Positions 3,822 through 32,808 of a stretch of DNA of 64,000 nucleotides are shown here, in pieces. Where the stretch lies: NCBI GenBank assembly GCA_902767315.1, contig CACXHB010000015.1:1-64000 (forward strand). Reading direction: 5' to 3'. Below the pieces are notes generated by a model. It was not told the origin of the DNA, made no database searches, and saw only the letters and a list, made by a program, of their open reading frames with translations. This stretch comes from an uncultured Eubacteriales bacterium. GTDB taxonomy: Bacteria; Bacillota; Clostridia; Christensenellales; Aristaeellaceae. Numbering within the stretch: position 1 is the first letter of the stretch; every line of letters begins with the position of its first letter. The position numbers were made by a program, and so were the translations under genes.

Positions 3822-5749
<1,928 letters not shown>

Positions 5750-6137: not shown

Positions 6138-6159
6138 GTTCTGCCCTCCCTTCGGCGCT

Positions 6160-6175
6160 CGTAGTATATACTACG
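6160..6175. promoter_or_regulatory. 16-bp perfect palindrome between divergent genes
   Basis: The sequence CGTAGTATATACTACG is perfectly self-complementary and lies between the start codons of the DUF3343 gene (6137) and the desulfurase-like gene (6213). A dimeric regulator binding both divergent promoters is a plausible reading; the regulator is not identifiable here. Confidence 0.5.
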
Positions 6176-6212
6176 CCGCCGCGCCTGCCGGCGTGAAGGA
6201 GGCTTTCGATCC

Positions 6213-7346
6213 ATGATTTATCTCGACAACGCCGCCACCAGCAGTCCCAAGCCCCAATGCGTACTGGACGCAGTTCTGCGGGCCATGACGGAAATCAACG
6301 CCAATCCCGGCCGGGGCGGTCACGCCCGTTCCCTGGCCGCCGGGCGGGAGGTACTCGCCTGCCGGGAGGCCCTCTCCGCCCTGCTGAACGCCCGGGATCC
6401 CACGGAAATTCTGATGCAGTTCAACTGCACCGACGCGCTGAATCTGGCCATCAAGGGCTGTCTGCGCCGGGGAGATCACGTGATTTCTACCTATTTAGAG
6501 CACAATTCCGTGCTGCGGGTACTGATGGGACTGGAAAAGCGGGGACAGATTTCCGTGACCCTGCTGCGCCCCCGGGAAGAGGGCATGATCGATCCCGAAG
6601 AAATTCGCAGGGCTATAACCCCCCGCACCCGACTTCTGGTTCTGACCCATGCTTCCAATGTCACCGGCGCCATTCAGCCCGTGGCCGCCGCGGGAGAGAT
6701 CGCCCGGGAAGCGGGGCTGCTTTATCTGATAGACGGGGCCCAGGCCCTGGGCTGTCTGCCGGTGGACGTGGAAAAGCTGGGCTGCCACATGTACGCCTTC
6801 CCCGGGCACAAGGGGCTGCTGGGCCCCCAGGGCACCGGCGGACTTTATCTGAAAAGCGGCGTGGTATTGCGGCCCCTGCGGGAAGGGGGCACCGGCTCCA
6901 GTTCGGAAAGCATGGTGCAGCCGGAGGAGCTGCCGGAGCGCTATGAATCCGGCACCCTGAACTACCACGGCGTCGCCGGACTCAACGCCGGGGTTCGCTA
7001 CGTCGCCGGGCGGCTCTCGCAGATTCTCTCTCACGAACGGGAGCTGACCACGGCCCTGTACCAGGGGCTTTCCGCCCTGCCCCAGGTCACCGTGTATTCC
7101 CCTGCCGCTGAAGCCGGCCGGGCGGGCATCGTCAGCTTCAACGCCGGCGACCTTTCCTCCTCTCAGGCAGCGGACGCGCTGGACAGGGCCGGCTTTGCCG
7201 TGCGGGGCGGACTGCACTGCGCCCCCGGAACCCACGCCGTACTAGGCACCCTGCGCCGGGGCGCGGTGCGGGCCAGCGTGGGCCACGCCACCACCTTCGA
7301 GGAAATCGACGCGTTTCTGGCGGCGGTACAGGCGCTGACGTCCTGA
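6213..7346 (+). CDS. Aminotransferase class V protein, cysteine desulfurase family
   Basis: A 377-residue PLP enzyme of the cysteine desulfurase-like group. The N-terminus YLDNAATSSPKP is diagnostic. The PLP-lysine motif is AFPGHKGLLGPQGTGG, and a mobile-loop cysteine lies in GLHCAPGTHAVLG, the position of the persulfide-forming residue. It would move sulfur from cysteine to an acceptor, possibly the DUF3343 protein encoded divergently. GGAGG lies about 10 nt before the ATG. No iscU, nifU or thiI gene is adjacent, so it is more likely a specialised paralogue than the main Fe-S cluster enzyme. Confidence 0.9.
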   Translation: MIYLDNAATSSPKPQCVLDAVLRAMTEINANPGRGGHARSLAAGREVLACREALSALLNARDPTEILMQFNCTDALNLAIKGCLRRGDHVISTYLEHNSVLRVLMGLEKRGQISVTLLRPREEGMIDPEEIRRAITPRTRLLVLTHASNVTGAIQPVAAAGEIAREAGLLYLIDGAQALGCLPVDVEKLGCHMYAFPGHKGLLGPQGTGGLYLKSGVVLRPLREGGTGSSSESMVQPEELPERYESGTLNYHGVAGLNAGVRYVAGRLSQILSHERELTTALYQGLSALPQVTVYSPAAEAGRAGIVSFNAGDLSSSQAADALDRAGFAVRGGLHCAPGTHAVLGTLRRGAVRASVGHATTFEEIDAFLAAVQALTS

Positions 7347-16639: not shown

Positions 16640-17986
16640 ATGAAACGCGCCTCCCAACACATGGATATGCTGCACGGGCCTCTGGCTGGGAAAATTCTGC
16701 TGTTTACCCTGCCCATCGCCCTGAGCAGCATGCTTCAGCAATTGTTCAACGCCGCCGACACCTCTATCGTGGGCTCCTTTGGAGACGCAAACGCCCTGGC
16801 GGCGGTGGGCGCCAACGGCGAAATCGTGGCGCTGATCGTGACCCTGTCCTCCGGCCTGGCCCTGGGGGCAAATATCCAGATCGCCGGCTGCATCGGCCGG
16901 AAGCAGCACGCGGCCCTTCCCCGTCTGACTCAGGCCGCGCTTTTGCTGGCAATCATCGCAGGCATCGCGGGACTATTGCTGGGTCAGGGGGTGGCCCGGG
17001 GGTTACTGCGTCTGATTCAAACGCCTGCGGAAATTCTTCCCGCCGCGGAAAGCTATCTGCGCATTTATCTGGCGGGGTATCCCTTTTTGCTGTTATATGA
17101 TTTCGGCGCGGCCATTCTCCGGGCCCGGGGGGACAGCCGCTCTCCCTTTTTCGCGCTGGCCCTTTCCGGCGTGGCCAACGTGCTGCTGAACCTGCTGTTT
17201 GTGCTGGGGTTTCACATGGGCGTGGCTGGGGTGGCCATCGCCACGGATCTGTCTACGCTGCTTTCCGCCGGGATGGTATTGCTGCGGCTGAAAAAGGACC
17301 CGGCGTTCCGCCCGGCCCTTCGTCCACTGCGCCTCGGCGGCGGAGAAATATTGGATATATTGAAAATGGGGATTCCCGCGGCCCTTCAGGGAGCGGTGTT
17401 CTGCTTTGCCAATATTTTCGTGCAGGCTTCCGTGAACCGCTTCGGCGCGGTGGCCATCGCCGGCAGCACCATCGCCATGAATTTCGAATACTTCACCTAT
17501 TACGCCATTACCGCCTTTGGACAGACGGCCACCACCTTCGTCAGCCAGAATTTCGCCGCAGGAAACCGGGCCCGGTGCCGGAAAATTCTGCGCCTGTGTC
17601 TGGGGCTTTCCCTGATTTGCAGCGCCGGGATGATCGGGCCCATCGTCGTCTTCCGAGAACAGTTTGCGGGGCTGTTTTCCCCGGAAAGCGCGGTGATTGA
17701 AAGCGCCTGTCTGCGGATTCTGGGCATTCTGGCCTTTGAGCCTGTCTGCTGCCTGTACGAAATTCCCGCGGGCATGCTGCGGGGCGCGGGGTACGCCCTT
17801 CTCCCGGCGGCCAGCACCATGGCGGGCACCTGCGCCTTCCGCATCGCGTGGATTTTCACGGTCTTTCGCAGGCGTCCGTCTCTTCAGGTGCTGTACCGGG
17901 CCTTTCCCCTCTCCTGGGGATGCACCATCGCCCTAGTGCTTGCGTGCTGCGCAGTACTTCGCCCCCTGCGGGAACAGCGGCCCTAA
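16640..17986 (+). CDS. MATE family efflux transporter
   Basis: A 448-residue polytopic membrane protein with about 12 hydrophobic segments. It begins with the family hallmark GKILLFTLPIALSSMLQQLFNAADTSIVG split over the first helix and loop, and the half-way repeat starts near residue 235 (ILKMGIPAALQGAVFCFANIF). These carriers expel drugs or metabolites using Na+ or H+ gradients. AGGAGG lies 10 nt before the ATG. Divergent from a LysR regulator. Its stop overlaps the end of a MarR-like remnant on the other strand. Confidence 0.93.
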   Translation: MKRASQHMDMLHGPLAGKILLFTLPIALSSMLQQLFNAADTSIVGSFGDANALAAVGANGEIVALIVTLSSGLALGANIQIAGCIGRKQHAALPRLTQAALLLAIIAGIAGLLLGQGVARGLLRLIQTPAEILPAAESYLRIYLAGYPFLLLYDFGAAILRARGDSRSPFFALALSGVANVLLNLLFVLGFHMGVAGVAIATDLSTLLSAGMVLLRLKKDPAFRPALRPLRLGGGEILDILKMGIPAALQGAVFCFANIFVQASVNRFGAVAIAGSTIAMNFEYFTYYAITAFGQTATTFVSQNFAAGNRARCRKILRLCLGLSLICSAGMIGPIVVFREQFAGLFSPESAVIESACLRILGILAFEPVCCLYEIPAGMLRGAGYALLPAASTMAGTCAFRIAWIFTVFRRRPSLQVLYRAFPLSWGCTIALVLACCAVLRPLREQRP

Positions 17987-18159
17987 CCGGTGCTATTCCG
18001 GCCGGGCCATTTCCTCGCAGCGCTGTCTTCCCCGAAAAGGGTGTGCGCCATCAGGTTGAGATAATTCATGTTTCGCGCCTTGGCATACGCGTCGTAGGCA
18101 TGGTCCATCTTCTGGAATTGCAGCATGAGCTCGTCCTGTATCGAATTCTTAGCCTCCCC
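17983..18159 (-). pseudogene. Degraded MarR-like regulator N-terminal fragment
   Basis: A short reading frame contains DELMLQFQKMDHAYDAYAKARNMNYLNLMA, which resembles the first helices of MarR-family regulators, and then runs into unrelated sequence before any winged HTH. A strong GGGGGGAGG site lies upstream but no proper start codon follows it. Located just after a MATE gene, a common MarR neighbour. The remnant reading is an inference from a short match. Confidence 0.35.
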
Positions 18160-18281
18160 CCGATTTATAAAATTTGATTTATTCCGGTAATGAATATTGA
18201 CATTTCCATCCAACCCGCCTCCCATGTCAAATCCGCCGGGAAAATTTTGCCAACGCAAAACAATCCGCAAACAAAGATTTG

Positions 18282-18309
18282 TTGACAACCTGCTCAGATG
18301 TGATACAAT
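18282..18309 (+). promoter_or_regulatory. Promoter of the HMA_2/P-type ATPase operon
   Basis: A perfect -35 TTGACA (18282-18287) and a -10 TACAAT (18304-18309) are 16 nt apart. Transcription would start near 18316, leaving an 80-nt leader that contains two inverted repeats. Confidence 0.75.
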
Positions 18310-18320
18310 AGGGGAGACGG

Positions 18321-18371
18321 AGAAACGTGACCGTCGTTTCTTTCGTCATAAAGTTAGTCACTGCTAACTTT
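18321..18371 (+). promoter_or_regulatory. Two inverted repeats in the metal-ATPase operon leader
   Basis: First repeat: AGAAACG (18321-18327) with CGTTTCT (18335-18341). Second: AAAGTTAG (18350-18357) with CTAACTTT (18364-18371), both perfect. They lie downstream of the predicted start site and upstream of the AGGAGG at the first gene. The second has the look of an operator for a dimeric repressor, possibly a metal sensor; an RNA hairpin role is also possible. Confidence 0.5.
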
Positions 18372-18396
18372 ACTGCAATCCACAGGAGGTATTCCT

Positions 18397-18963
18397 ATGA
18401 AAGGCGTCTGGTGGTTGGCGCTGGCTGCGGGAGCCGCGGCGGCGCTGCCTAAAAAACAGGAGCACAATCTGATGAAGCTTCCTTCTTTCCGCGGCGTGGC
18501 AGAGGTGCGTTCCAGCCTGCCCGGGCGCATGCGTCTGTACGTGCCCACCATTCAGCAGCAGCCTGAATTGGCCCGACAGATGGCGGCGCAGCTGGAGGGC
18601 ACGGGCGTGATTCATCAGGTAGCGCTGCAGCCCGTGACCGGCAGCGTGCTGATTCGGTATGACGAAGCCCGGGTGCAGGCCAGCGTGGTGCTGGGGGCGG
18701 TCATGAAGCTGATGGGCCTGGATGAAAAGATAAAAGCCGCTCCCGTAAGCAAGGCGCGGCAGGGCGTCGCCCTTTTGCTGCGCAGCGTCAATCAGGGGGT
18801 ATTGGACGCGACCGGCGATCTTCTGGACGCGCCCACCCTGGCGGCAGGTGCGCTGACCATTGCGGCTTTGCGCAGCAAGAAATTGGAAGGCTGGGCCTCG
18901 CCCGGGGCAATGACCCTGCTGTGGTGGGCTTCCAAGCTATTTGGAGCGCAAGATTATGAATAA
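18397..18963 (+). CDS. HMA_2-type domain protein (first of operon)
   Basis: A 188-residue protein with an N-terminal hydrophobic anchor (GVWWLALAAGAAAALP) and a ferredoxin-like domain resembling the HMA_2 group: VRSSLPGRMRLYVP, then VLIRYDEARVQASVVLGAV. The CxxC metal site of classical HMA domains is absent. The C-terminal 90 residues contain weakly hydrophobic helices. AGGAGG is 7 nt before the ATG. It is the first of five genes around a P-type ATPase; the same SLPGRxRL signature recurs in the next two proteins, suggesting duplication of one module. Confidence 0.8.
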   Translation: MKGVWWLALAAGAAAALPKKQEHNLMKLPSFRGVAEVRSSLPGRMRLYVPTIQQQPELARQMAAQLEGTGVIHQVALQPVTGSVLIRYDEARVQASVVLGAVMKLMGLDEKIKAAPVSKARQGVALLLRSVNQGVLDATGDLLDAPTLAAGALTIAALRSKKLEGWASPGAMTLLWWASKLFGAQDYE

Positions 18964-19342
18964 GTTCAGCGAAGGGTTTTTGCGGCTGTGCCTGAAGCCC
19001 ACGGTGGAATGCAATCTGCCCGGCCGGCTTCGGCTGAGTTTTGGAAAATACCATCTGCTGCCCAAGGAGGCCGCGCCCTATCTGCATTATACTCAGGAGG
19101 TACTGCGGTTGCTGCCGGGGGTTTCCGCCGCGGAAATCAACCCGCGCATCGGCACGTTGCTGATCCGATATGACGCAAAAACCACCAACGCCCGGGCCAT
19201 ATTGCGCTGGGTGGACATTGTGGTGGACGAAGGCATCCAAATTTTCAAAGAGGACCTCTGGCAGGACGTGAGCGAAGCGACGCTGGCGCAGATCGTACGC
19301 CAGCGGCTGATTCTGCGGCTGCCTCAGCAAAAAGAAGGATAA
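18956..19342 (+). CDS. HMA_2-type domain protein (second of operon)
   Basis: A 128-residue protein almost entirely made of one HMA_2-like domain: CNLPGRLRLSFGKYHLL, then VSAAEINPRIGTLLIRYDA. No CxxC site. ATG 18956 overlaps the previous gene's end by 8 nt and has GGAG upstream; a TTG at 18941 is possible but less likely. It may be a regulatory or docking partner of the ATPase encoded 2 nt downstream. Confidence 0.8.
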   Translation: MNKFSEGFLRLCLKPTVECNLPGRLRLSFGKYHLLPKEAAPYLHYTQEVLRLLPGVSAAEINPRIGTLLIRYDAKTTNARAILRWVDIVVDEGIQIFKEDLWQDVSEATLAQIVRQRLILRLPQQKEG

Positions 19343-19344
19343 CT

Positions 19345-21525
19345 ATGCTTAGAAAAGAACACATTGACGGCTTTATGAAAAGTCGCGTCATGCACAGCCT
19401 GCCCGGCCGGCTTCGTCTGGCAGTGGAAGGACTGCAATATCTGAAGGACGAAAGCCCCGAAATCGCCGCGGAGCTGGCGGACATTCCCGGGGTGCGTCTG
19501 GCGCGGGTTACCGCCTGCACCGGCGGCATTCTCCTGCAATACGACGAGAAAATTCCGGATTCCAGCTTTCTTTCAGAGCAGACGGATCTGGTTCTGGCCC
19601 GGTACAGCATGGCCGCGCTGCGGGCGCGTCATGCGAAAAGCGGCGACGAACCCGTCGAAGCGCCCATGACCACCGCCCGGCTGGCCAAGCGTCTGGCAAT
19701 CAACGCCGGAGCGCTGGCCCTGGGGAATACGATGTTTACCACCCCGCTGATGGGCGGCGCACTGACGAACTTTACCTCGCTGGAAACGCTGGCCAGCCTG
19801 GGTCTTTCCGCGCCCATGGCCAAAAACGCCTGGGAGGGGCTGCGCCGGGAGAAGCGGCCCAACGCCGATTTCCTGACGGTGACCTCCATTGTGGCCAGCC
19901 TGCTGCTGGGCAACGCCCATTCCGCGCTGATGATTCTGGCCCTTTCCGATCTGGCGGAGCTGATGACCTCCTACACCATCGAGCGCACCCGTTCTTCCAT
20001 TAAGAAGATGCTCTCCGCCGACGAGGGCGAGGCCTGGAAGGTGCTTTCCGACGGCAAAGTGGAGCGCTGCCCCATGGCGCAGATCGGCACCGGCGACGTG
20101 GTGGCGGTGCACACCGGCGAAAAAATCTCCGTGGACGGCAAGGTGGTATACGGCGCAGCCGTGGTGGACCAGAGCCCCATTACCGGCGAATTCGTGCCGG
20201 TGGAAAAGCGGGAAGGCGACGAGGTATTCGCCGGCACCGTGGTAAAAAGCGGCACCATTCACGTGCAGGCCGCGAAGGTAGGCGATCAGACGGTAATTTC
20301 CCGCATTGTGGGCATGGTGGAGGCCAGCGAACTGAAGAAGGCCCCCATTCAGCGCTATGCGGACAAGTTTTCCAATTATCTGGTGCCGCTGAATTTCCTT
20401 TTGTGCCTGTCGGTATGGCTGGTGACGAAGAATCCCCAGAAGGCGCTGAAGATGCTGGTAATCGACTATTCCTGCGGCATCAAGCTTTCCACAGCCACGG
20501 CCTTCTCCGCGGCCATCAACACCGCCGTTAAGCAGGGCGTGCTGATCAAGGGCGGCACCTTCATCGAACAGATGAGCAGCGCCAACACCGTGCTGCTGGA
20601 CAAAACCGGCACCATTACCGAGGGCAAGCCTCAGGTAGTCTCCATGGCGCTTCTGAAGCCGGAAATGACCCACGCGGAGGTGCTTTCCTACGCCATGGCG
20701 GCGGAAGAGACCAGCACCCATCCCCTGGGCGACGCCATCATGCGTTACGGCCGGCAGCTGGGCGCACAGCCCTTGCCCCACGGCGACATCATCACGGAAG
20801 TTTCCCGGGGCAGCCGCACCCAGGCGGACGGCAAAATCGTGCGGGTAGGCAACTTGAAATACATGCGGGAAAACGGCGTCATCGCCGCCGCGCCGCTGCC
20901 TCAGGACACCGGCGCCATTCCCAACTATGTGGGCGTAGATCAGGAAATCGTGGCGGTATTGTACGCCATGGACAGCCCCCGGGAGAACGTGCGCCGGGCC
21001 ATCAACAGCCTGCGTTACGACGGCGTGGGCGACATCGAGCTGCTCACCGGGGATTTGGAATCTCAGGCCCGAACCGTGGCGGAGCAGGTAGGCGCGGACG
21101 GCTACCGGGCGCAGCTTCTGCCGGAACAGAAGGCGGAGGCCGTGCTGAAATTGCAGGTGCAGGGCAACGGCGTGGTAATGGTGGGCGACGGCATCAACGA
21201 CGCGCCTGCCCTGGCCTATGCCGACGTGGGCATTTCCATGGGCAGCAAGTCCACGGACATCGCCATGGAAACCAGCGACGTGATTATCAACCGGGACGAT
21301 CCCATGATGATTCCCGCGCTGCGCCGTCTGGCCCGGTCCACCATGCGCATTGTTCACCAGAACTTTGCCCTGGTAATCGCCATTAATTCCGTTGGCCTGA
21401 TTCTGGGCGCGGCAAGCGGCATCTCGGTGATGATGAGCGCTCTTTTGCACAATTCTTCCACCATTTTGGTGGTGGCAAATTCCCTGCGGCTGATGTTCAT
21501 GAAGCCCGGGGACGGGAGGGCATAA
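19345..21525 (+). CDS. Heavy-metal translocating P-type ATPase with SCG motif
   Basis: A 726-residue P1B-like ATPase. An N-terminal HMA_2-like domain (HSLPGRLRLAVEGL) replaces the CxxC domain. It has the actuator motif SPITGEFVP, phosphorylation motif DKTGTITEG, nucleotide-binding STHPLGDAI and hinge GDGINDAPALA. The transmembrane metal motif, normally CPC or SPC, is SCG in VIDYSCGIKLSTATAF, so metal preference differs from copper and zinc pumps; a similar Ser-Cys motif occurs in CtpC-like ATPases linked to manganese. Transmembrane helices occupy roughly 110-240, 345-420 and 655-720. Its stop overlaps the next ATG by one base (TAATG). Confidence 0.9.
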   Translation: MLRKEHIDGFMKSRVMHSLPGRLRLAVEGLQYLKDESPEIAAELADIPGVRLARVTACTGGILLQYDEKIPDSSFLSEQTDLVLARYSMAALRARHAKSGDEPVEAPMTTARLAKRLAINAGALALGNTMFTTPLMGGALTNFTSLETLASLGLSAPMAKNAWEGLRREKRPNADFLTVTSIVASLLLGNAHSALMILALSDLAELMTSYTIERTRSSIKKMLSADEGEAWKVLSDGKVERCPMAQIGTGDVVAVHTGEKISVDGKVVYGAAVVDQSPITGEFVPVEKREGDEVFAGTVVKSGTIHVQAAKVGDQTVISRIVGMVEASELKKAPIQRYADKFSNYLVPLNFLLCLSVWLVTKNPQKALKMLVIDYSCGIKLSTATAFSAAINTAVKQGVLIKGGTFIEQMSSANTVLLDKTGTITEGKPQVVSMALLKPEMTHAEVLSYAMAAEETSTHPLGDAIMRYGRQLGAQPLPHGDIITEVSRGSRTQADGKIVRVGNLKYMRENGVIAAAPLPQDTGAIPNYVGVDQEIVAVLYAMDSPRENVRRAINSLRYDGVGDIELLTGDLESQARTVAEQVGADGYRAQLLPEQKAEAVLKLQVQGNGVVMVGDGINDAPALAYADVGISMGSKSTDIAMETSDVIINRDDPMMIPALRRLARSTMRIVHQNFALVIAINSVGLILGAASGISVMMSALLHNSSTILVVANSLRLMFMKPGDGRA

Positions 21526-22229
21526 TGCGCAGCGAACAGGGAGCCATTCATCTGGAAGTATTGTCCGCAATCCGCGGACGGATTCGGCTGCAGCTGGAAC
21601 GCCCGATTTCCTCGGAAATTCCCTTTTGCAGCATACCGGGGGTAAAGGCCTGCCGGTATACCCCCCGCATTCGCACCCTTTTGTGCGAATATGACCCCGA
21701 AGTCATCGACGAGGCGCAGCTCATCGTCCGTATTGGCGCGGCCTACGCCCTCCAGTCTCAGGCCAAGCTTCTGCACGTCCGCCACTGCGAAGAGCAGGGA
21801 TTTTCCATGGCCCCCAGCGGCTATCTGGCGCTTCTGTGCATTGGGCTGGACGGGGCCCTTTCCCTGGCGGACTCGTCGCTGACGGCGTTTACCCGCTGGC
21901 TTTCCACGGGCGCGACGCTGGCCGCCGTGGTGGAGCATGGCTATCAGGAGCTGCACGTGCGAGGCAGCTTCGATCCCGAGGTCATGTCCATCGTCTATCT
22001 CATCAATTCCGTCGGCAAGCCCGGCGCGGTACGCGCCAGCCTGCTGGCGTGGATTATCACCTTTGGCCGTCATCTGATTCCCCGCTCTCCCCGCGAGCAG
22101 CCCTATCTGATCAAGCGCACAAAGGACGCGCTGACGCTGACCCCCATGGCGGGCGGCGAAAGCGAACTGGCCTTTGCCGGCAGCATGTTTCAGCAGGGTA
22201 TGGAAAAAATGATCGCGCACAAAGGCTAA
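21525..22229 (+). CDS. HMA_2-like protein with C-terminal helical region
   Basis: A 234-residue protein translationally coupled to the ATPase by TAATG. The first 80 residues again look like an HMA_2-type fold (LSAIRGRIRLQLERP, then CEYDPEVIDEAQLIVRIG). The C-terminal part has two mildly hydrophobic helices (SGYLALLCIGLDGALSLA and SIVYLINSVGKPGAVRASLL). No known catalytic motif. Likely an accessory subunit or regulator of the ATPase. Confidence 0.72.
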   Translation: MRSEQGAIHLEVLSAIRGRIRLQLERPISSEIPFCSIPGVKACRYTPRIRTLLCEYDPEVIDEAQLIVRIGAAYALQSQAKLLHVRHCEEQGFSMAPSGYLALLCIGLDGALSLADSSLTAFTRWLSTGATLAAVVEHGYQELHVRGSFDPEVMSIVYLINSVGKPGAVRASLLAWIITFGRHLIPRSPREQPYLIKRTKDALTLTPMAGGESELAFAGSMFQQGMEKMIAHKG

Positions 22230-22265
22230 CCTGCCTTTCCGGCAAGAAGAAGGAGGAAATTCTCT

Positions 22266-22532
22266 ATGTTCGGCAACAATCCGTTGGTCAAGGGCATTCT
22301 CATCGGCGTGGGCGCCAGCCTGGTGGGCTTCTGCGCCTATAAGCACAACGAGGACAAGGTGGACGGCTTCCTGCGCCGCCACGGCGTGAAGGTGAAGTCC
22401 CCCGCCGCCGGTTTCGAAACCATGTCGGTGGAAGATCTGATGCGCACCAAGGAAACCATCGAAGACCTGATCGCCGAGAAGGAGATGCAGGATCAGAGCG
22501 TGACGGTGGAAGCCGTTCCCGCGGAAGAATAA
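22266..22532 (+). CDS. Small single-pass membrane protein of the ATPase operon
   Basis: An 88-residue protein with one N-terminal membrane helix (GILIGVGASLVGFCAY) and a charged cytoplasmic tail containing a predicted helix (SVEDLMRTKETIEDLIAEKEM). AAGGAGG precedes the ATG. It is the last gene before a hairpin terminator. No family recognised. Confidence 0.7.
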   Translation: MFGNNPLVKGILIGVGASLVGFCAYKHNEDKVDGFLRRHGVKVKSPAAGFETMSVEDLMRTKETIEDLIAEKEMQDQSVTVEAVPAEE

Positions 22533-22546
22533 ACCCAGTTTTTCAG

Positions 22547-22572
22547 GGGCCTGCCGGTTCTCCGGCGGGCCC
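22547..22572 (+). terminator. GC-rich hairpin, probable terminator
   Basis: An 11-bp stem with one G-U pair and a TTCT loop (GGGCCTGCCGG at 22547-22557 with CCGGCGGGCCC at 22562-22572). The following T-run is poor, so termination may be partial. It closes the metal-ATPase operon. Confidence 0.5.
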
Positions 22573-22619
22573 TTGGCATATCCCCCCAGCCGTTCCGCGA
22601 AAAAAACCGAAAAAATTTT

Positions 22620-22646
22620 CCAACCTGAGGCCCGGAAATGCGTATA
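22620..22646 (+). promoter_or_regulatory. ECF-type promoter of the sigma-factor operon
   Basis: CCAAC (22620-22624) and CGTATA (22641-22646) are separated so that AAC and CGT are 16 nt apart, the spacing and composition typical of ECF sigma promoters. The same two elements with the same spacing occur at 24441-24467. It lies 31 nt before the GTG of the sigma gene, suggesting autoregulation. Confidence 0.65.
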
Positions 22647-22676
22647 ACCATACGAAAACAAAAGGAGGAGGAAACC

Positions 22677-23212
22677 GTGAATGAGACGCAACTGATTCGG
22701 CGCTGTCAACGAGGCGACCGACAGGCCTTTGAAACGTTGATTCGCCAGTATTACGATTATGTTTCCGGCTTCCTTCTGAAGGCGATGCAGGACGCGCTTC
22801 TGGCCCAGGACCTGACCCAGGAAACCTTTCTGAAAATGATCCGCAGCATCGAAACCTTCGATTGCAACGGCGCCGCCGGAATGGGCACCTGGCTTGTCAC
22901 CATCGCCAAAAACTGTTACGTGGACTACCTGCGCAAAACCGGATTGTTCTGGAGGACGTGGACGATCTTCCCCTTTCCGATGGGAAAGACGTTTCCGACC
23001 TGGTGGCGCGGCGCCTGCAATATCAGAAGGCGCTGGCCGCGATAGATTCCCTGCCCCCGGAACAGGGGCTGGCCATCCGGTTGAAATACGTGGAAAGTCT
23101 TACCCTGCAGGAAATCGCGCAGCGCTTCGGCGTACCTCAGAAAACCATTAAAAGCCGGATTCACGAGGGTACGGTAAAGCTTCGAAAGCTATTAAAAAAG
23201 GAGGATGGATGA
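22677..23212 (+). pseudogene. ECF-type RNA polymerase sigma factor, frameshifted
   Basis: Starting at GTG 22677 after AGGAGGAGG, the first frame encodes sigma region 2 (LIRRCQRGDRQAFETLIRQY, AQDLTQETFLKMIRSI, ending CYVDYLRK). At about 22936 the frame is lost. The -1 frame continues as RIVLEDVDDLPLSDG and then sigma region 4 (LPPEQGLAIRLKYVESLTLQ, EIAQRFGVPQKTIKSRIHEG). Adding one A to the AAAA run at about 22934-22937 would restore a protein of about 178 residues. Both halves are well conserved and the promoter is intact, so this may be a recent mutation or an assembly error. Functional status is open. Confidence 0.8.
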
Positions 23213-23215
23213 CCC

Positions 23216-23488
23216 ATGCGTCCGAATTCTGAGGATTGTATCCGCCAATTGACCCCGGCCATCGTTGAAAAATGCGATGCGCTGGCGGCAGCCCGGAAGG
23301 AACGAATTCAGGCCCGGCTGTTTCTGCTGTTGTGCGTTCTGGTGGTCACGGTACCGGCGCTGCTGGTGCTTTTCGGGGTTTCGCTGACGCTTCTGATCGT
23401 GCCAATTGTGTTTATGTGCCTGAGCACGCTGCTGCTTTTGCCGGCGCTGCTGAATAAAACGGAACATCAGGGAGGGATTTCTCTATGA
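23216..23488 (+). CDS. Small two-helix membrane protein next to the sigma factor
   Basis: A 90-residue protein starting 3 nt after the sigma-factor stop. A soluble N-terminal part of about 30 residues (IRQLTPAIVEKCDALAAAR) precedes two membrane helices (LFLLLCVLVVTVPALLVLFG and LTLLIVPIVFMCLSTLLLL). The position and topology suit an anti-sigma factor or partner, but no zinc anti-sigma motif is visible. Its end overlaps the next start by 4 nt. Confidence 0.72.
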   Translation: MRPNSEDCIRQLTPAIVEKCDALAAARKERIQARLFLLLCVLVVTVPALLVLFGVSLTLLIVPIVFMCLSTLLLLPALLNKTEHQGGISL

Positions 23489-24393
23489 ACAGGCTTGAAA
23501 AGATGCTTTCCAAATGGAATTTCAAAAAAATCGCGGTGTGGTATCTGGTGCTGGCGGTGATCACCGGGGTACTCTGCGGGGGAACCGTGGGCTATCTCTA
23601 CCGGCAGCGGCTGAAATTCGCCTGGCAGTACGCCCGTCTGGAAGAGGCAAAAACCCCGGAAGCCCTGCGCATGGCGGCGGACAAAACGGCAGCCGCTTCC
23701 GAAGACGTGGTGGACATTCTGGTGGTGGACGAAAACCAGCAGATTCTCTATTCCGCCAAGGATTCGAAATTTGCGGCGGGCCCCCTGACGCTAACCAAAG
23801 TGGGCGACGCGAAGAAATACCTGGCTTCTGCCGATTATCCGGAGGCAGTGTTTTTGCAGGTCAAGGGCGACGAATTCATGCTGAACTCCATCGTAAGCCA
23901 CGATTTCGGCAAGATCCGCAGCGAATATGACGACGAAAGCGCCTTCGAGAATGGGCTTTCCGCCAAGACCGTGTACATGCTCAACCGCGTTCAGGCCCGA
24001 AAGGCAGGCGGCACGGCATACGTCATCACCCGGCCCACCTCTGTACCCGGCGGCGAAACGGCTTTAAAGGTCACGGCGGCGCTGGCCATGCTGCTGGTCT
24101 GCGTCTACTGGGTGCTGGTGGCCCTGTGGATGTATCGGGACGCGGCCCGGTGCAAGCTCTCTCCCCTGTATTGGGGGCTCATCGGCCTGTTTACCAACCT
24201 CATCGGCCTGATCGTCTACAAAATCTACAAGCACAGCGCCACCCTCTGCCCCGCCTGCGGCGCGGCTCAAAGCGCCGGACACCTGTACTGCTCCTTCTGC
24301 GGCGCTCAATTGGGAGCCCGCTGCGCCAATTGCGGCGGCAAGGTGGGGGCAAAGGACAGTTTCTGCCACCATTGCGGCAACAAGATCAAATAA
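23485..24393 (+). CDS. Membrane protein with C-terminal double zinc ribbon
   Basis: A 302-residue protein. One N-terminal membrane helix (IAVWYLVLAVITGVLCGG) is followed by an extracytoplasmic domain of about 150 residues that resembles a sensor fold (DVVDILVVDENQQILYSA). Two further helices come near 195-245, then a cytoplasmic tail with four CxxC pairs (CPACG, CSFCG, CANCG, CHHCG), i.e. a double zinc ribbon. Co-transcribed with the sigma factor; it could sense an envelope signal and relay it to the sigma unit. That role is inferred. Confidence 0.8.
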   Translation: MNRLEKMLSKWNFKKIAVWYLVLAVITGVLCGGTVGYLYRQRLKFAWQYARLEEAKTPEALRMAADKTAAASEDVVDILVVDENQQILYSAKDSKFAAGPLTLTKVGDAKKYLASADYPEAVFLQVKGDEFMLNSIVSHDFGKIRSEYDDESAFENGLSAKTVYMLNRVQARKAGGTAYVITRPTSVPGGETALKVTAALAMLLVCVYWVLVALWMYRDAARCKLSPLYWGLIGLFTNLIGLIVYKIYKHSATLCPACGAAQSAGHLYCSFCGAQLGARCANCGGKVGAKDSFCHHCGNKIK

Positions 24394-26231: not shown

Positions 26232-27476
26232 TCAGTCAGAGCTGCCCGGTTCCAGCATGGGCTGATCCCAGAGTCCCTTCGCCTTCAGGCAGTCGCGAAC
26301 GCGGCCGTAGTAAATGCGCAGGAATTTGGTCATCCCGGCGGTCATGTAGACGTAGTACTTCTTGCCCTCGGATCGCTTCTTGTCGAGGAACTGGTAGACG
26401 GGATCGTCCTGCGGCTGAAGCTGAAGCAGGATGGTCATGACGACAAAGAGCGTTTTGCGCAGGTAGGGAGAGCCGCGTTTGCTGCTGGGCTTGCTTTCAG
26501 AAACCTTGTCGCCGGAATCATCCTTGATGGGATCGGTTCCCGCAAAGCCTACCAGCGACTTCTGATGCGCGAAGCGGCGCAGGTCGCCGATCTCGGCGAT
26601 CAGCTGCGGGCCCATGGATTTTCCGACGCCGGTCATGGCCATGACGGTCTCGTATTCCGGAAGCTGAGAGGCCAGGCGATTCATCTCGGCGCGGTAGGCT
26701 TCCACCGTGCGGGAAACAGTTCTGAGCTGAGCGACCGCTTCCTTCACCAGCAGCCTGCAGGTGTCGGACTTGGGCACCAGCGGAAACTTCTGCCGGGCGT
26801 CCGCGTGCAATTCAAGAGCTTTCTGCTCGGAGAAATTGTAGCCGTGACGTTTGCACCACTTCCGGTAGCGCTCCGCAAAGGCGCTCCGGCTGAGACTGGC
26901 GACGCAGTCCACGTGCCAGAAGGTATCCACGAAATCGACCCACTTCTGGCTGCCGTCCGGTCGCACCGGGCTGTCAAAGTAACGGTTTACACCGGGATAG
27001 CTCTGCTCCAGCAGGGCTATCAGGTTGTTGTTCAGCGCGGTTCTGGTCTTGCTCGACAGCTGGAACTGCCGGTGCAGCGTCTTGAGATCATAACGAATCG
27101 TATCCATGGGAGTATATTGCGGCAAAATCTCCCACTTGTCAAGAGCGGACTGGGCGATTTTCAGAGCGTCGGCCCTGTCGGTCTTCACTTTGCGGACGTC
27201 GACGCCCTCCCGGTAGTCTTTGATGACCAGCGGGTTCACGGCGGAGACGAAGAAGCCGGCGCGGTACATGCTCATGGCAAAGGATTCGTAATACCGGCCC
27301 GTGTGCTCCATGACGATCCGAGCTTCGCCGTTCAATCCGCGCAGCTTCTCTATTAGAAAAGCAAAGCCGTCCGCGGTGTGCGGAACCTCGAACGGCTTCA
27401 TGACAACCTTCCGCCGGGCGCCGAGCACGGCAGCCGTGCTCCGGCCATTGGAAACATCTACCCCAACTGCGAACAT
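26232..27476 (-). CDS. IS110-family transposase (bridge-RNA-guided recombinase type)
   Basis: A 414-residue DEDD recombinase. The N-terminal RuvC-like domain has GVDVSNGRSTAAV (first Asp), RIVMEHTGRYYE (Glu) and KTDRADALKIAQ (two Asp). The C-terminal Transposase_20 domain has MTGVGKSMGPQLIAEIGDLR and the catalytic serine region SSKRGSPYLRKTLF. All key residues are present and the gene is full length, so the element may be active. In this family an RNA from the end upstream of the gene specifies target and donor DNA. Confidence 0.95.
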   Translation of the reverse strand: MFAVGVDVSNGRSTAAVLGARRKVVMKPFEVPHTADGFAFLIEKLRGLNGEARIVMEHTGRYYESFAMSMYRAGFFVSAVNPLVIKDYREGVDVRKVKTDRADALKIAQSALDKWEILPQYTPMDTIRYDLKTLHRQFQLSSKTRTALNNNLIALLEQSYPGVNRYFDSPVRPDGSQKWVDFVDTFWHVDCVASLSRSAFAERYRKWCKRHGYNFSEQKALELHADARQKFPLVPKSDTCRLLVKEAVAQLRTVSRTVEAYRAEMNRLASQLPEYETVMAMTGVGKSMGPQLIAEIGDLRRFAHQKSLVGFAGTDPIKDDSGDKVSESKPSSKRGSPYLRKTLFVVMTILLQLQPQDDPVYQFLDKKRSEGKKYYVYMTAGMTKFLRIYYGRVRDCLKAKGLWDQPMLEPGSSD

Positions 27477-30922: not shown

Positions 30923-32808
30923 GGTTTTCTCTCCTTTTTCTTTCTGGATGGGATCAAAAGACGCATTGCGTTTAAGATGACCGCCAAAATGCTGGCTTCG
31001 TGAATCAGCATGCCCGCGGACATATGCACGGAACCGGCGAAAAGCCCCGCCAGCAACAGCGCCACCGTGCTCACCGCAAGGGCGATGTTTTCATACAGAA
31101 CGCGGACGGTTCTTCTGGCCAGGTTCAGCGCCCGGGCCAGGCTTTCCAGATCCGACCGAATCAGCACCACGTCGGAATTGTCGATGGCCACGTCCGTTCC
31201 GGAGCCCATGGCGATGCCCGTATCCGAAGCGGCCAGGGCGGGGCTGTCGTTAATTCCGTCCCCCACAAAGGTGACTACCCGGCCCTGGGCCTGCAATTCC
31301 CGAATCACCGCCAGCTTATCCTGAGGAAGCAATTCTCCCCGGCAATCCGGAATGCCCAGCCCCGCCGCAACTTTGGCGACGGCGCTGGCGTTATCCCCCG
31401 AAAGCAGCAGCAGGTTTTTAACGCCCATGGCCTTCATCCGGGCGATGTTTTCCGCCGCGTCCGCCTTCAGCCGATCCGAAATGCCCAGCAGCATCTGGAT
31501 TTTTCCGTCCACCGCAATCAGCACCGTGGACGCGCCCTCCGCCTGAAGGGCCTCCATTTCCCGGTCCGCCTGTTCCGGCAATTCGATCCCGTGCCGTTCC
31601 ATCAGCCGCTGATTGCCCACCAGCGCCCGGCGCGTACAAACCACGGCCTCCATTCCGCAGCCCCGGACGGTCTGGGCCGATTCCGCTTCATAAGAAGGCG
31701 CTTCAGCGGCGTATCGAAGAATCGCCTGGGCCAGGGGATGATCCGAGACCCGTTCCGCGGCGGCCGCCAGCGCCAGGGCCTTTTCCGGTTCCGCCGTATA
31801 ATCTTTCTGAACGCAGACCTCGGGGGTTCCTTCCGTCAGCGTGCCGGTTTTGTCAAAAACCAGCGTATCCGTGCGGGCGAAGGTGTGAATGCTGTCGCCG
31901 CCCTTTAGAAGAACGCCCTCCTGCGCTCCCCGACCGATGCCCGCCACGTTGGCGATAGGCGCGCCGATCACCAACGCCCCGGGGCAGGCCAGCACCAGCA
32001 CCGTAATGGCCGTATCAATCTTTCGGGTCAACAGCAGCACCGCGGCGGCAAGGAGGATCACCGCCGGGGTATAATACTTTGCGAACCGATCAATCCACCG
32101 TTCCACCGGAGATTTTGCGTCCTGGGCCTGTTCCACCAGCGCGATGATCTTCGCAAAAGTGGTGTCTTCCCCCACCTTCACCGCCCGCATTTGCAGACTT
32201 CCGCTGTCCAGAAGGGTGCCGGCATAGACGAAATCCCCAGCGGCCTTGTGTTTTGCCAGGGGCTCGCCGGTAATGCTCGCTTCCGCGGCGTAGCCCTCGC
32301 CTTTAAGCACCACGCCGTCAGAAGCGATTTTGCCGCCGGTTTTGACCAGCAAAACGTCCCCGATTTCCACCTCGTCCGCGTCGATTTCCTCGGTTTCAAA
32401 TGCACCGTTTTCCCCGTTTTTCACGATTCGCCACGCCGTAGCGGGCGCCAGCTCCGTCAGGGTCTTAATGGCGGAACGGGTCTTCTTCATGGTCTTCTGT
32501 TCCAGAAACGAGCCCAGTTGGAACAGAAACGCCACCATGGCCGATTCATTGAATTCGCCGATTGCGCACGCGCCCACGGCCGCGATGGACACCAGCAGTT
32601 CGATGCTGACGGTTTTGAACCGAAGCGCCTGCACGGCCCGGAAGAGAATCGGCACGCCGGAGAGCGCAAACGCCGCCAGATAACAGGCGCTTGCCGGGAT
32701 TGTCCAGTCCATCCACCGGCCAAACACCGCCGCAAGCACAATCAGCGCCCCTGCGCTCCACAAAAGGGGCAACGCCAGCCGCTTGCGCCACGCGTTCCAT
32801 TTCATCAA
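30919..32808 (-). CDS. Heavy-metal P-type ATPase with CPG motif
   Basis: A 629-residue P1B ATPase without an N-terminal HMA domain, which is encoded separately downstream. Motifs: actuator SITGEPLAKHK, phosphorylation DKTGTLTEGTPE, SDHPLAQAI, hinge GDGINDSPALAASD. The membrane metal motif is CPG (VLACPGALVIGAP) instead of CPC, which alters expected metal coordination. Transmembrane helices fall near 15-60, 75-110, 235-300 and 565-620. First gene of a four-gene operon with HMA, hemerythrin-like and Crp/Fnr genes; redox-linked metal export is the likely theme. Confidence 0.92.
   Translation of the reverse strand: MMKWNAWRKRLALPLLWSAGALIVLAAVFGRWMDWTIPASACYLAAFALSGVPILFRAVQALRFKTVSIELLVSIAAVGACAIGEFNESAMVAFLFQLGSFLEQKTMKKTRSAIKTLTELAPATAWRIVKNGENGAFETEEIDADEVEIGDVLLVKTGGKIASDGVVLKGEGYAAEASITGEPLAKHKAAGDFVYAGTLLDSGSLQMRAVKVGEDTTFAKIIALVEQAQDAKSPVERWIDRFAKYYTPAVILLAAAVLLLTRKIDTAITVLVLACPGALVIGAPIANVAGIGRGAQEGVLLKGGDSIHTFARTDTLVFDKTGTLTEGTPEVCVQKDYTAEPEKALALAAAAERVSDHPLAQAILRYAAEAPSYEAESAQTVRGCGMEAVVCTRRALVGNQRLMERHGIELPEQADREMEALQAEGASTVLIAVDGKIQMLLGISDRLKADAAENIARMKAMGVKNLLLLSGDNASAVAKVAAGLGIPDCRGELLPQDKLAVIRELQAQGRVVTFVGDGINDSPALAASDTGIAMGSGTDVAIDNSDVVLIRSDLESLARALNLARRTVRVLYENIALAVSTVALLLAGLFAGSVHMSAGMLIHEASILAVILNAMRLLIPSRKKKERKP

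Follow-up and report, generated by a model that had tools for sequence, protein, structure and literature searches.

A P1B-6 ATPase operon with three additional HMA_2 proteins as a putative ferrosome-type iron module in anaerobic bacteria

Known P1B-6 systems and the layout of the operon

Experimental evidence for ferrosomes comes from few bacteria, and their pump FezB is reportedly assigned to the P1B6 ATPases in the primary ferrosome papers. For Clostridioides difficile, FezA and FezB are described as Fur-repressed and as required for these iron-storing compartments (PMC12574912), with fezAB corresponding to CD630_05910-05920 (PMC11651100). Published marks of the class are an HN pair in TM6 and, typically, a DUF6110 protein encoded alongside (PMC9374683), while Fe(II) is given as the metal of P1B-6 ATPases in a review table (PMC7558416). 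A second system of this kind is CtpC-PacL1 of Mycobacterium tuberculosis, in which a P1B6-like pump with HN in TM6 is combined with a small membrane partner; CtpC carries CPC and is a zinc pump, whereas PacL1 has a DUF1490 domain and a zinc-binding tail (PMC9374683).

Here, we analysed a stretch of 64,000 nucleotides, hereafter the window, in which positions 18397-22532 are filled by five tightly packed genes on the + strand, with spacings of -8, +2, -1 and +36 bp. P1 (18397-18963, +; 188 aa) is a full-length HMA_2 protein followed by C-terminal membrane-type helices, and P2 (18956-19342, +; 128 aa) is a short HMA_2 protein. The ATPase P3 (19345-21525, +; 726 aa) is of P1B-6 type and combines an N-terminal HMA_2 domain with D419-KTGT, S376-C377-G378 in TM4 and H702-N703 in TM6. 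P4 (21525-22229, +; 234 aa) consists of an HMA_2 domain and four predicted helices, and P5 (22266-22532, +; 88 aa) is a glycine-rich protein with a single helix, the tail ETIEDLIAEKE and no Pfam family.

Variants of the motif [L/I]xGRxRL, which is part of the Pfam HMA_2 domain, occur in P1 (SLPGRMRL), P2 (NLPGRLRL), P3 (SLPGRLRL) and P4 (AIRGRIRL), and the motif is absent from P5. Its form PGR.RL was found three times, always within the operon, among the 223 ORFs with a length of 80 aa or more on both strands of the window (50,560 residues). The HMA_2 profile of Pfam scores 145.8 bits in P1 and 35 bits in P3 at a cut-off of 30, with P2 (23.9 bits) and P4 (19.2 bits) staying below it; profile comparison nevertheless ties the HMA_2 regions to each other (P2-P1, E = 6e-16; P4-P2, 2e-14; P4-P1, 2e-12), indicating that the four regions of P1, P2, P3 and P4 are related. 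CxxC is absent from P1, P2, P4, P5 and residues 1-180 of the ATPase, and TM4 of P3 reads DYSCGIK, where CopA, ZntA and CadA have CPC in the same place. The initial annotation had proposed a metal ATPase operon with these very boundaries, an SLPGRxRL-like motif in four of its five proteins, missing CxxC sites and SCG in place of CPC, all of which we could confirm; its three extra HMA_2-like proteins are likewise correct by profile comparison, the Pfam cut-off alone passing one of them.

Class and relatives of the pump

For comparison with FezB, we used the locus L125, in which an ATPase lies beside a DUF6110 gene (1.5e-22) and a few genes away from a triad of the CD0596-cotF-cotCB type. As the published order in C. 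difficile is CD0596-cotF (CD0597)-cotCB (CD0598) (PMC3789822), counting back from the triad makes the pair fit CD0591 (pump) and CD0592 (DUF6110), and we thus infer from gene order that these are FezB and FezA of C. difficile. The two systems share a P1B-6 pump with a weak N-terminal HMA_2 domain, Ser-Cys in TM4 and HN in TM6, and a small glycine-rich membrane protein with one helix adjoins the pump in both. They differ in that TM4 has SCA in FezB and SCG in P3, that the partner of FezB is a clear DUF6110 protein and P5 is not, and that no separate HMA_2 proteins were seen alongside FezB in L125, whereas three of them flank P3.

The DUF6110 family itself is rare, with eight matches (L159-L166) in seven of the 398 genomes sampled from the phylum, two of them in one genome (G239). 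Six of the eight adjoin an ATPase whose TM4 carries Ser-Cys-Ala and whose TM6 carries HN. The match in L166 was rejected as chance. In L161, a DUF6110 gene (6150-6422) stands with no P-type ATPase seen in 13 kb; the second DUF6110 gene of that genome adjoins a pump (L162).

Phylogenetic trees place P3 close to FezB. In the first tree, the ATPases of all 19 five-gene loci included form a single clade, sister to nine DUF6110-linked ATPases, and the joint group of 28 rows is supported with 100/100. For the second tree nine further SCG-type ATPases were added and six near-copies dropped, yielding an SCG clade of 25 rows (100/99) as sister to seven DUF6110-linked ATPases (95/95). Both trees set the clade of P3 apart from CopA, ZntA and CadA and group P3 with FezB-type pumps, separate from those of P1B-1, P1B-2, P1B-4 and P1B-5, where the labels of several plasmid ATPases used as references follow from their TM4 motifs. 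HN in TM6 is present throughout (19/19 five-gene, 9/9 fezAB and 9/9 added SCG-type ATPases), and CPC is replaced in TM4 by SCG in 19/19 five-gene ATPases and in 8/9 of the added set, the remaining one having ACG. Motifs and trees thus characterise P3 as a FezB-type P1B-6 ATPase of the kind found in the ferrosome system, and this predicted class membership is well supported. P5 lacks a Pfam match to the usual partner DUF6110, to which it may be distantly related; such a partner is typical of the class and not strictly defining. We offer the term 'ferrosome system' for what the operon may work like, not as a filed membership.

Since the ATPase stands apart from copper and zinc exporters, the firm grouping with them that the initial annotation had named as evidence against its view was not found, and its suggestion of a pump whose metal is not copper agrees with both trees. 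The lead to CtpC was close, in that CtpC is by published motif 'P1B6-like', and inexact, as that motif is HN together with CPC (PMC9374683). 'CtpC-like' ATPases as one group were rejected because the CPC+HN ATPases split in the second tree: those of L031, L032 and L046, carried by members of the window's family, are placed outside the P1B-6 clade, and those of L199, L201 and L202 are its nearest neighbours and possibly P1B6-like pumps of CtpC type. The pumps of L201 and L202 are each adjoined by a small DUF6110-like protein. A CtpC/PacL-type platform for the efflux of zinc or cadmium would account for a small single-helix partner next to a pump with HN in TM6, as in CtpC-PacL1; TM4 without CPC, the lack of a DUF1490 match and of a DLHDHDH-type tail in P5, and the iron context described below make such a platform highly improbable. 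HMA_2 proteins as found in the window operon are, moreover, not mentioned for CtpC-PacL1 in the text excerpts of PMC9374683.

The Shewanella ATPases of L070 and L071 were rejected as orthologs, being CPC pumps. A second P1B ATPase of the window (30952-32691, -) has ACPGAL, i.e. CPG and not CPC, in TM4 and clusters with L030 and not with the P1B-6 clade.

A palindrome shared with iron uptake genes

Upstream of P1, a sigma-70-type promoter match, TTGACA-16-TACAAT (18282-18309, +), agrees at 11 of 12 positions; with two such sites against 1.5 expected from shuffles, its weight lies in its position and not in the count. It is followed by a candidate metalloregulator box, a perfect 9+9 palindrome without strand, TAAAGTTAG-N6-CTAACTTTA (18349-18372), about 24 bp 5' of P1. 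No similar palindrome was found 5' of P1 in the other loci scanned, and a Fur box 5' of the operon was rejected as not convincing, the best match reaching 12/19.

The core of the palindrome, GTTAG-N6-CTAAC, has six exact sites in the genome of 2.6 Mb, that of the operon included. Of the others, one lies between feoA and feoB on contig C108, 16 bp 5' of the feoB start, and another 5' of feoA-feoB on C153, so that two of the three feo loci of this genome are accompanied by an exact core; the third locus (C127) has no box, and no feo gene is among the ORFs listed around the remaining three exact sites. Looser copies of the core occur at 4910, 4994, 5079 and 5127, upstream of feoA on C108. With one mismatch or less, the core gives 15 sites compared to 41 for the reversed control. 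As the pattern is thus not enriched genome-wide, the argument from the box is solely one of place. On C108, feoA has a DtxR-family gene (Fe_dep_repress, 5e-13) at a distance of about 1.7 kb, and the product of this gene may be the protein that binds the palindrome. On the same contig (L008, 4333-5142), GTTA-type palindromes stand in a row at the feo promoter, likely the mark of an iron regulon.

Iron uptake genes also accompany the cluster in some relatives. Among the 29 other SCG-type clusters, five carry a co-oriented feoB no more than 2.5 kb away, namely the close sisters L128 and L167 as well as L200, L205 and L206, with FeoB identified by Pfam in L128, L167 and L200 and by the P-loop motif in L205 and L206. 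It is absent from the examined flanks, short in L058 and L066, of the other 24. One of the nine fezAB-type loci (L160) is adjoined by a DtxR-family gene, with feo genes about 4 kb off.

We favour iron over manganese as the cargo, based on the kinship to FezB, the box shared with iron uptake, the feo neighbours and the published Fe(II) assignment of P1B-6. Our preferred reading, to which we assign a probability of about 0.55, is that the operon encodes a ferrosome-type P1B-6 module for Fe2+ that is co-controlled with iron uptake and whose extra HMA_2 membrane proteins dock to the pump or organise it. Linkage to feo, the common box, the position in the trees, the class motifs and the conserved set of five genes are observed; the Fe2+ cargo, the identity of the repressor, the docking roles and vesicle formation are the parts of the reading that we infer. 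According to this reading, P3 would use its SCG/HN membrane site to bind cytosolic Fe2+ and would carry this ion through a membrane at the expense of ATP, with ferrosome-like vesicles as the most likely destination. The HMA_2 domains of P1, P2, P4 and P3, devoid of CxxC, would serve docking or assembly by gathering the pump and its partners, and P5 may act as a small membrane organiser in a role like that of FezA or PacL. A DtxR-type repressor at the palindrome would turn on the operon together with ferrous-iron uptake, and such joint control would allow iron to be stored once it is back.

The same chemistry would suit a plain efflux pump of the cell membrane that acts against iron excess without vesicles, like PfeT or FrvA, and Fe2+ export when iron levels are high has been reported for bacterial P1B-4 ATPases (PMC10654040). 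There is, in addition, no sign of vesicles in the sequence. We nevertheless consider efflux rather unlikely: the SPC-type ATPases, taken as P1B-4, are distant in our trees, and the nearest relative of known role builds ferrosomes (PMC12574912). Furthermore, linkage and a common box with iron-import genes would amount to a futile cycle, and storage accounts better than efflux for co-expression with the import of ferrous iron.

Manganese had been the metal suggested by the initial annotation, and an exporter of manganese or another divalent metal would fit a transmembrane site unlike that of copper or zinc pumps as well as the fact that DtxR-family regulators may sense Mn2+. The box is, however, common to feo genes, and feo genes flank the cluster in relatives. 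P1B-6 is given as an Fe(II) class (PMC7558416), and CtpC, the source of the manganese idea, was later tied to zinc resistance and not to manganese (PMC9374683). We found no support for manganese and regard such an exporter as quite improbable; the evidence points towards ferrous iron.

Accessory proteins, distribution and neighbourhood

Why should a pump be encoded together with three proteins that carry the same domain as its own N-terminus? Docking or assembly is the simplest role for such proteins, and in this form the earlier idea of accessory docking proteins beside a P1B pump is supported as a reading, the roles themselves being putative. The AF2 model of P1 (pLDDT 80.8) has an HMA fold, and its HMA_2 domain matches a metal-binding domain of ATP7B with a Z-score of 8.8 and an rmsd of 1.5 over 65 residues. 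The predicted fold is thus common to the copper chaperone-type HMA domains of ATP7B and CopZ, from which P1 differs by the lack of CxxC and by its LPGR turn, which immediately precedes the HMA-aligned part.

For P4, a model of moderate confidence (pLDDT 76) comprises the HMA_2 domain and four helices, and six residues are invariant in 21 aligned rows (H138, E142, D150, P151, E152 and H183). The whole-length profile alignment of P4 extends into the membrane part, and the top structural matches include helices of zinc and cadmium pumps (Z 8.6 and 8.2), level with unrelated helical proteins. P4 as a truncated half of an ATPase was rejected, since the membrane part alone reached 0.1%, no better than shuffled controls. 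Its two invariant histidines had raised the idea of a FezC/DUF4405 cytochrome, which was discarded as Pfam scans of P4 contain no DUF4405. A bolder version of the storage reading, which we consider doubtful and distinctly less than probable, would make the operon a ferrosome machinery of a second kind. In it, P1, P2 and P4 would be membrane-anchored copies of the pump's N-terminal docking domain, with P4 perhaps a remnant of a half-pump, forming a hetero-oligomeric patch around the P1B-6 ATPase that shapes the iron vesicle, while the acidic/histidine site of P4 (H138, E142, D150, E152 and H183) would handle iron.

P5 resembles FezA and other DUF6110 proteins in its glycine-rich helix, its tail (ED[LI]IAEKE compared to EDILAEAKE) and its place in the operon. 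None of 18 P5 proteins matches DUF6110 or DUF1490 in Pfam, and the profile probability against DUF6110 varies from 12.8% over 32% to 74.5% with growing row sets. Membership of P5 in DUF6110 was therefore not borne out, and homology is only suggested by these sequence likenesses.

The five-gene operon was found in 23 loci including that of the window: relatives from the same family, eleven loci of Peptostreptococcaceae type, two further genomes, one Fusobacterium vincentii and two less closely related genomes of the phylum (L198 and L200), in which the order of P1 and P2 is swapped. L055 and L072 stem from a single record and were counted once, the incomplete contig of L075 was left out, and near-duplicates of Intestinibacter (L064, L065, L068) and Peptostreptococcus (L067, L069) were counted separately. 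Seven more loci have P2-P1-ATPase without P4; P5 lies upstream in L204, L205, L207 and L208, and its frame could not be made out from the ORF listing in L206, L209 and L210. The pump ortholog is patchy, being present in five of 100 genomes of the window's family and in 14 of 71 of the family of Intestinibacter. HMA_2 is more common than the pump (97 of 398 genomes of the phylum sample, 47 above cut-off), and the P4 profile has matches in 22/398 phylum genomes, most of which span the HMA_2 part only.

In the literature searched on HMA_2, ferrosome/FezB/P1B-6, fez, P1B-5 to P1B-7 and DUF6110/PF19991, neither a description of a multi-HMA_2 operon nor experimental work on a pump or partner from the SCG clade was found; both primary ferrosome papers lie outside this scope and may list such clusters. 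If the operon stores iron, such machinery would reach other anaerobes, i.e. Peptostreptococcaceae beyond C. difficile, rumen Clostridia, Fusobacterium and other Bacillota, and three defined accessory proteins would become candidates for building the compartment. HMA_2, a domain with no metal stated in its name, would then be linked to iron.

Around the operon, Rfam gave no match in 17000-24000. An ECF-type sigma factor gene lies just 3' of P5 (22638-23212, +) and appears frameshifted, being read in two overlapping frames, 22638-23045 (Sigma70 region 2) and 22862-23212 (apparent region 4). Further downstream, the ORF 26232-27476 (-) resembles, as we take it, an IS110-type transposase.
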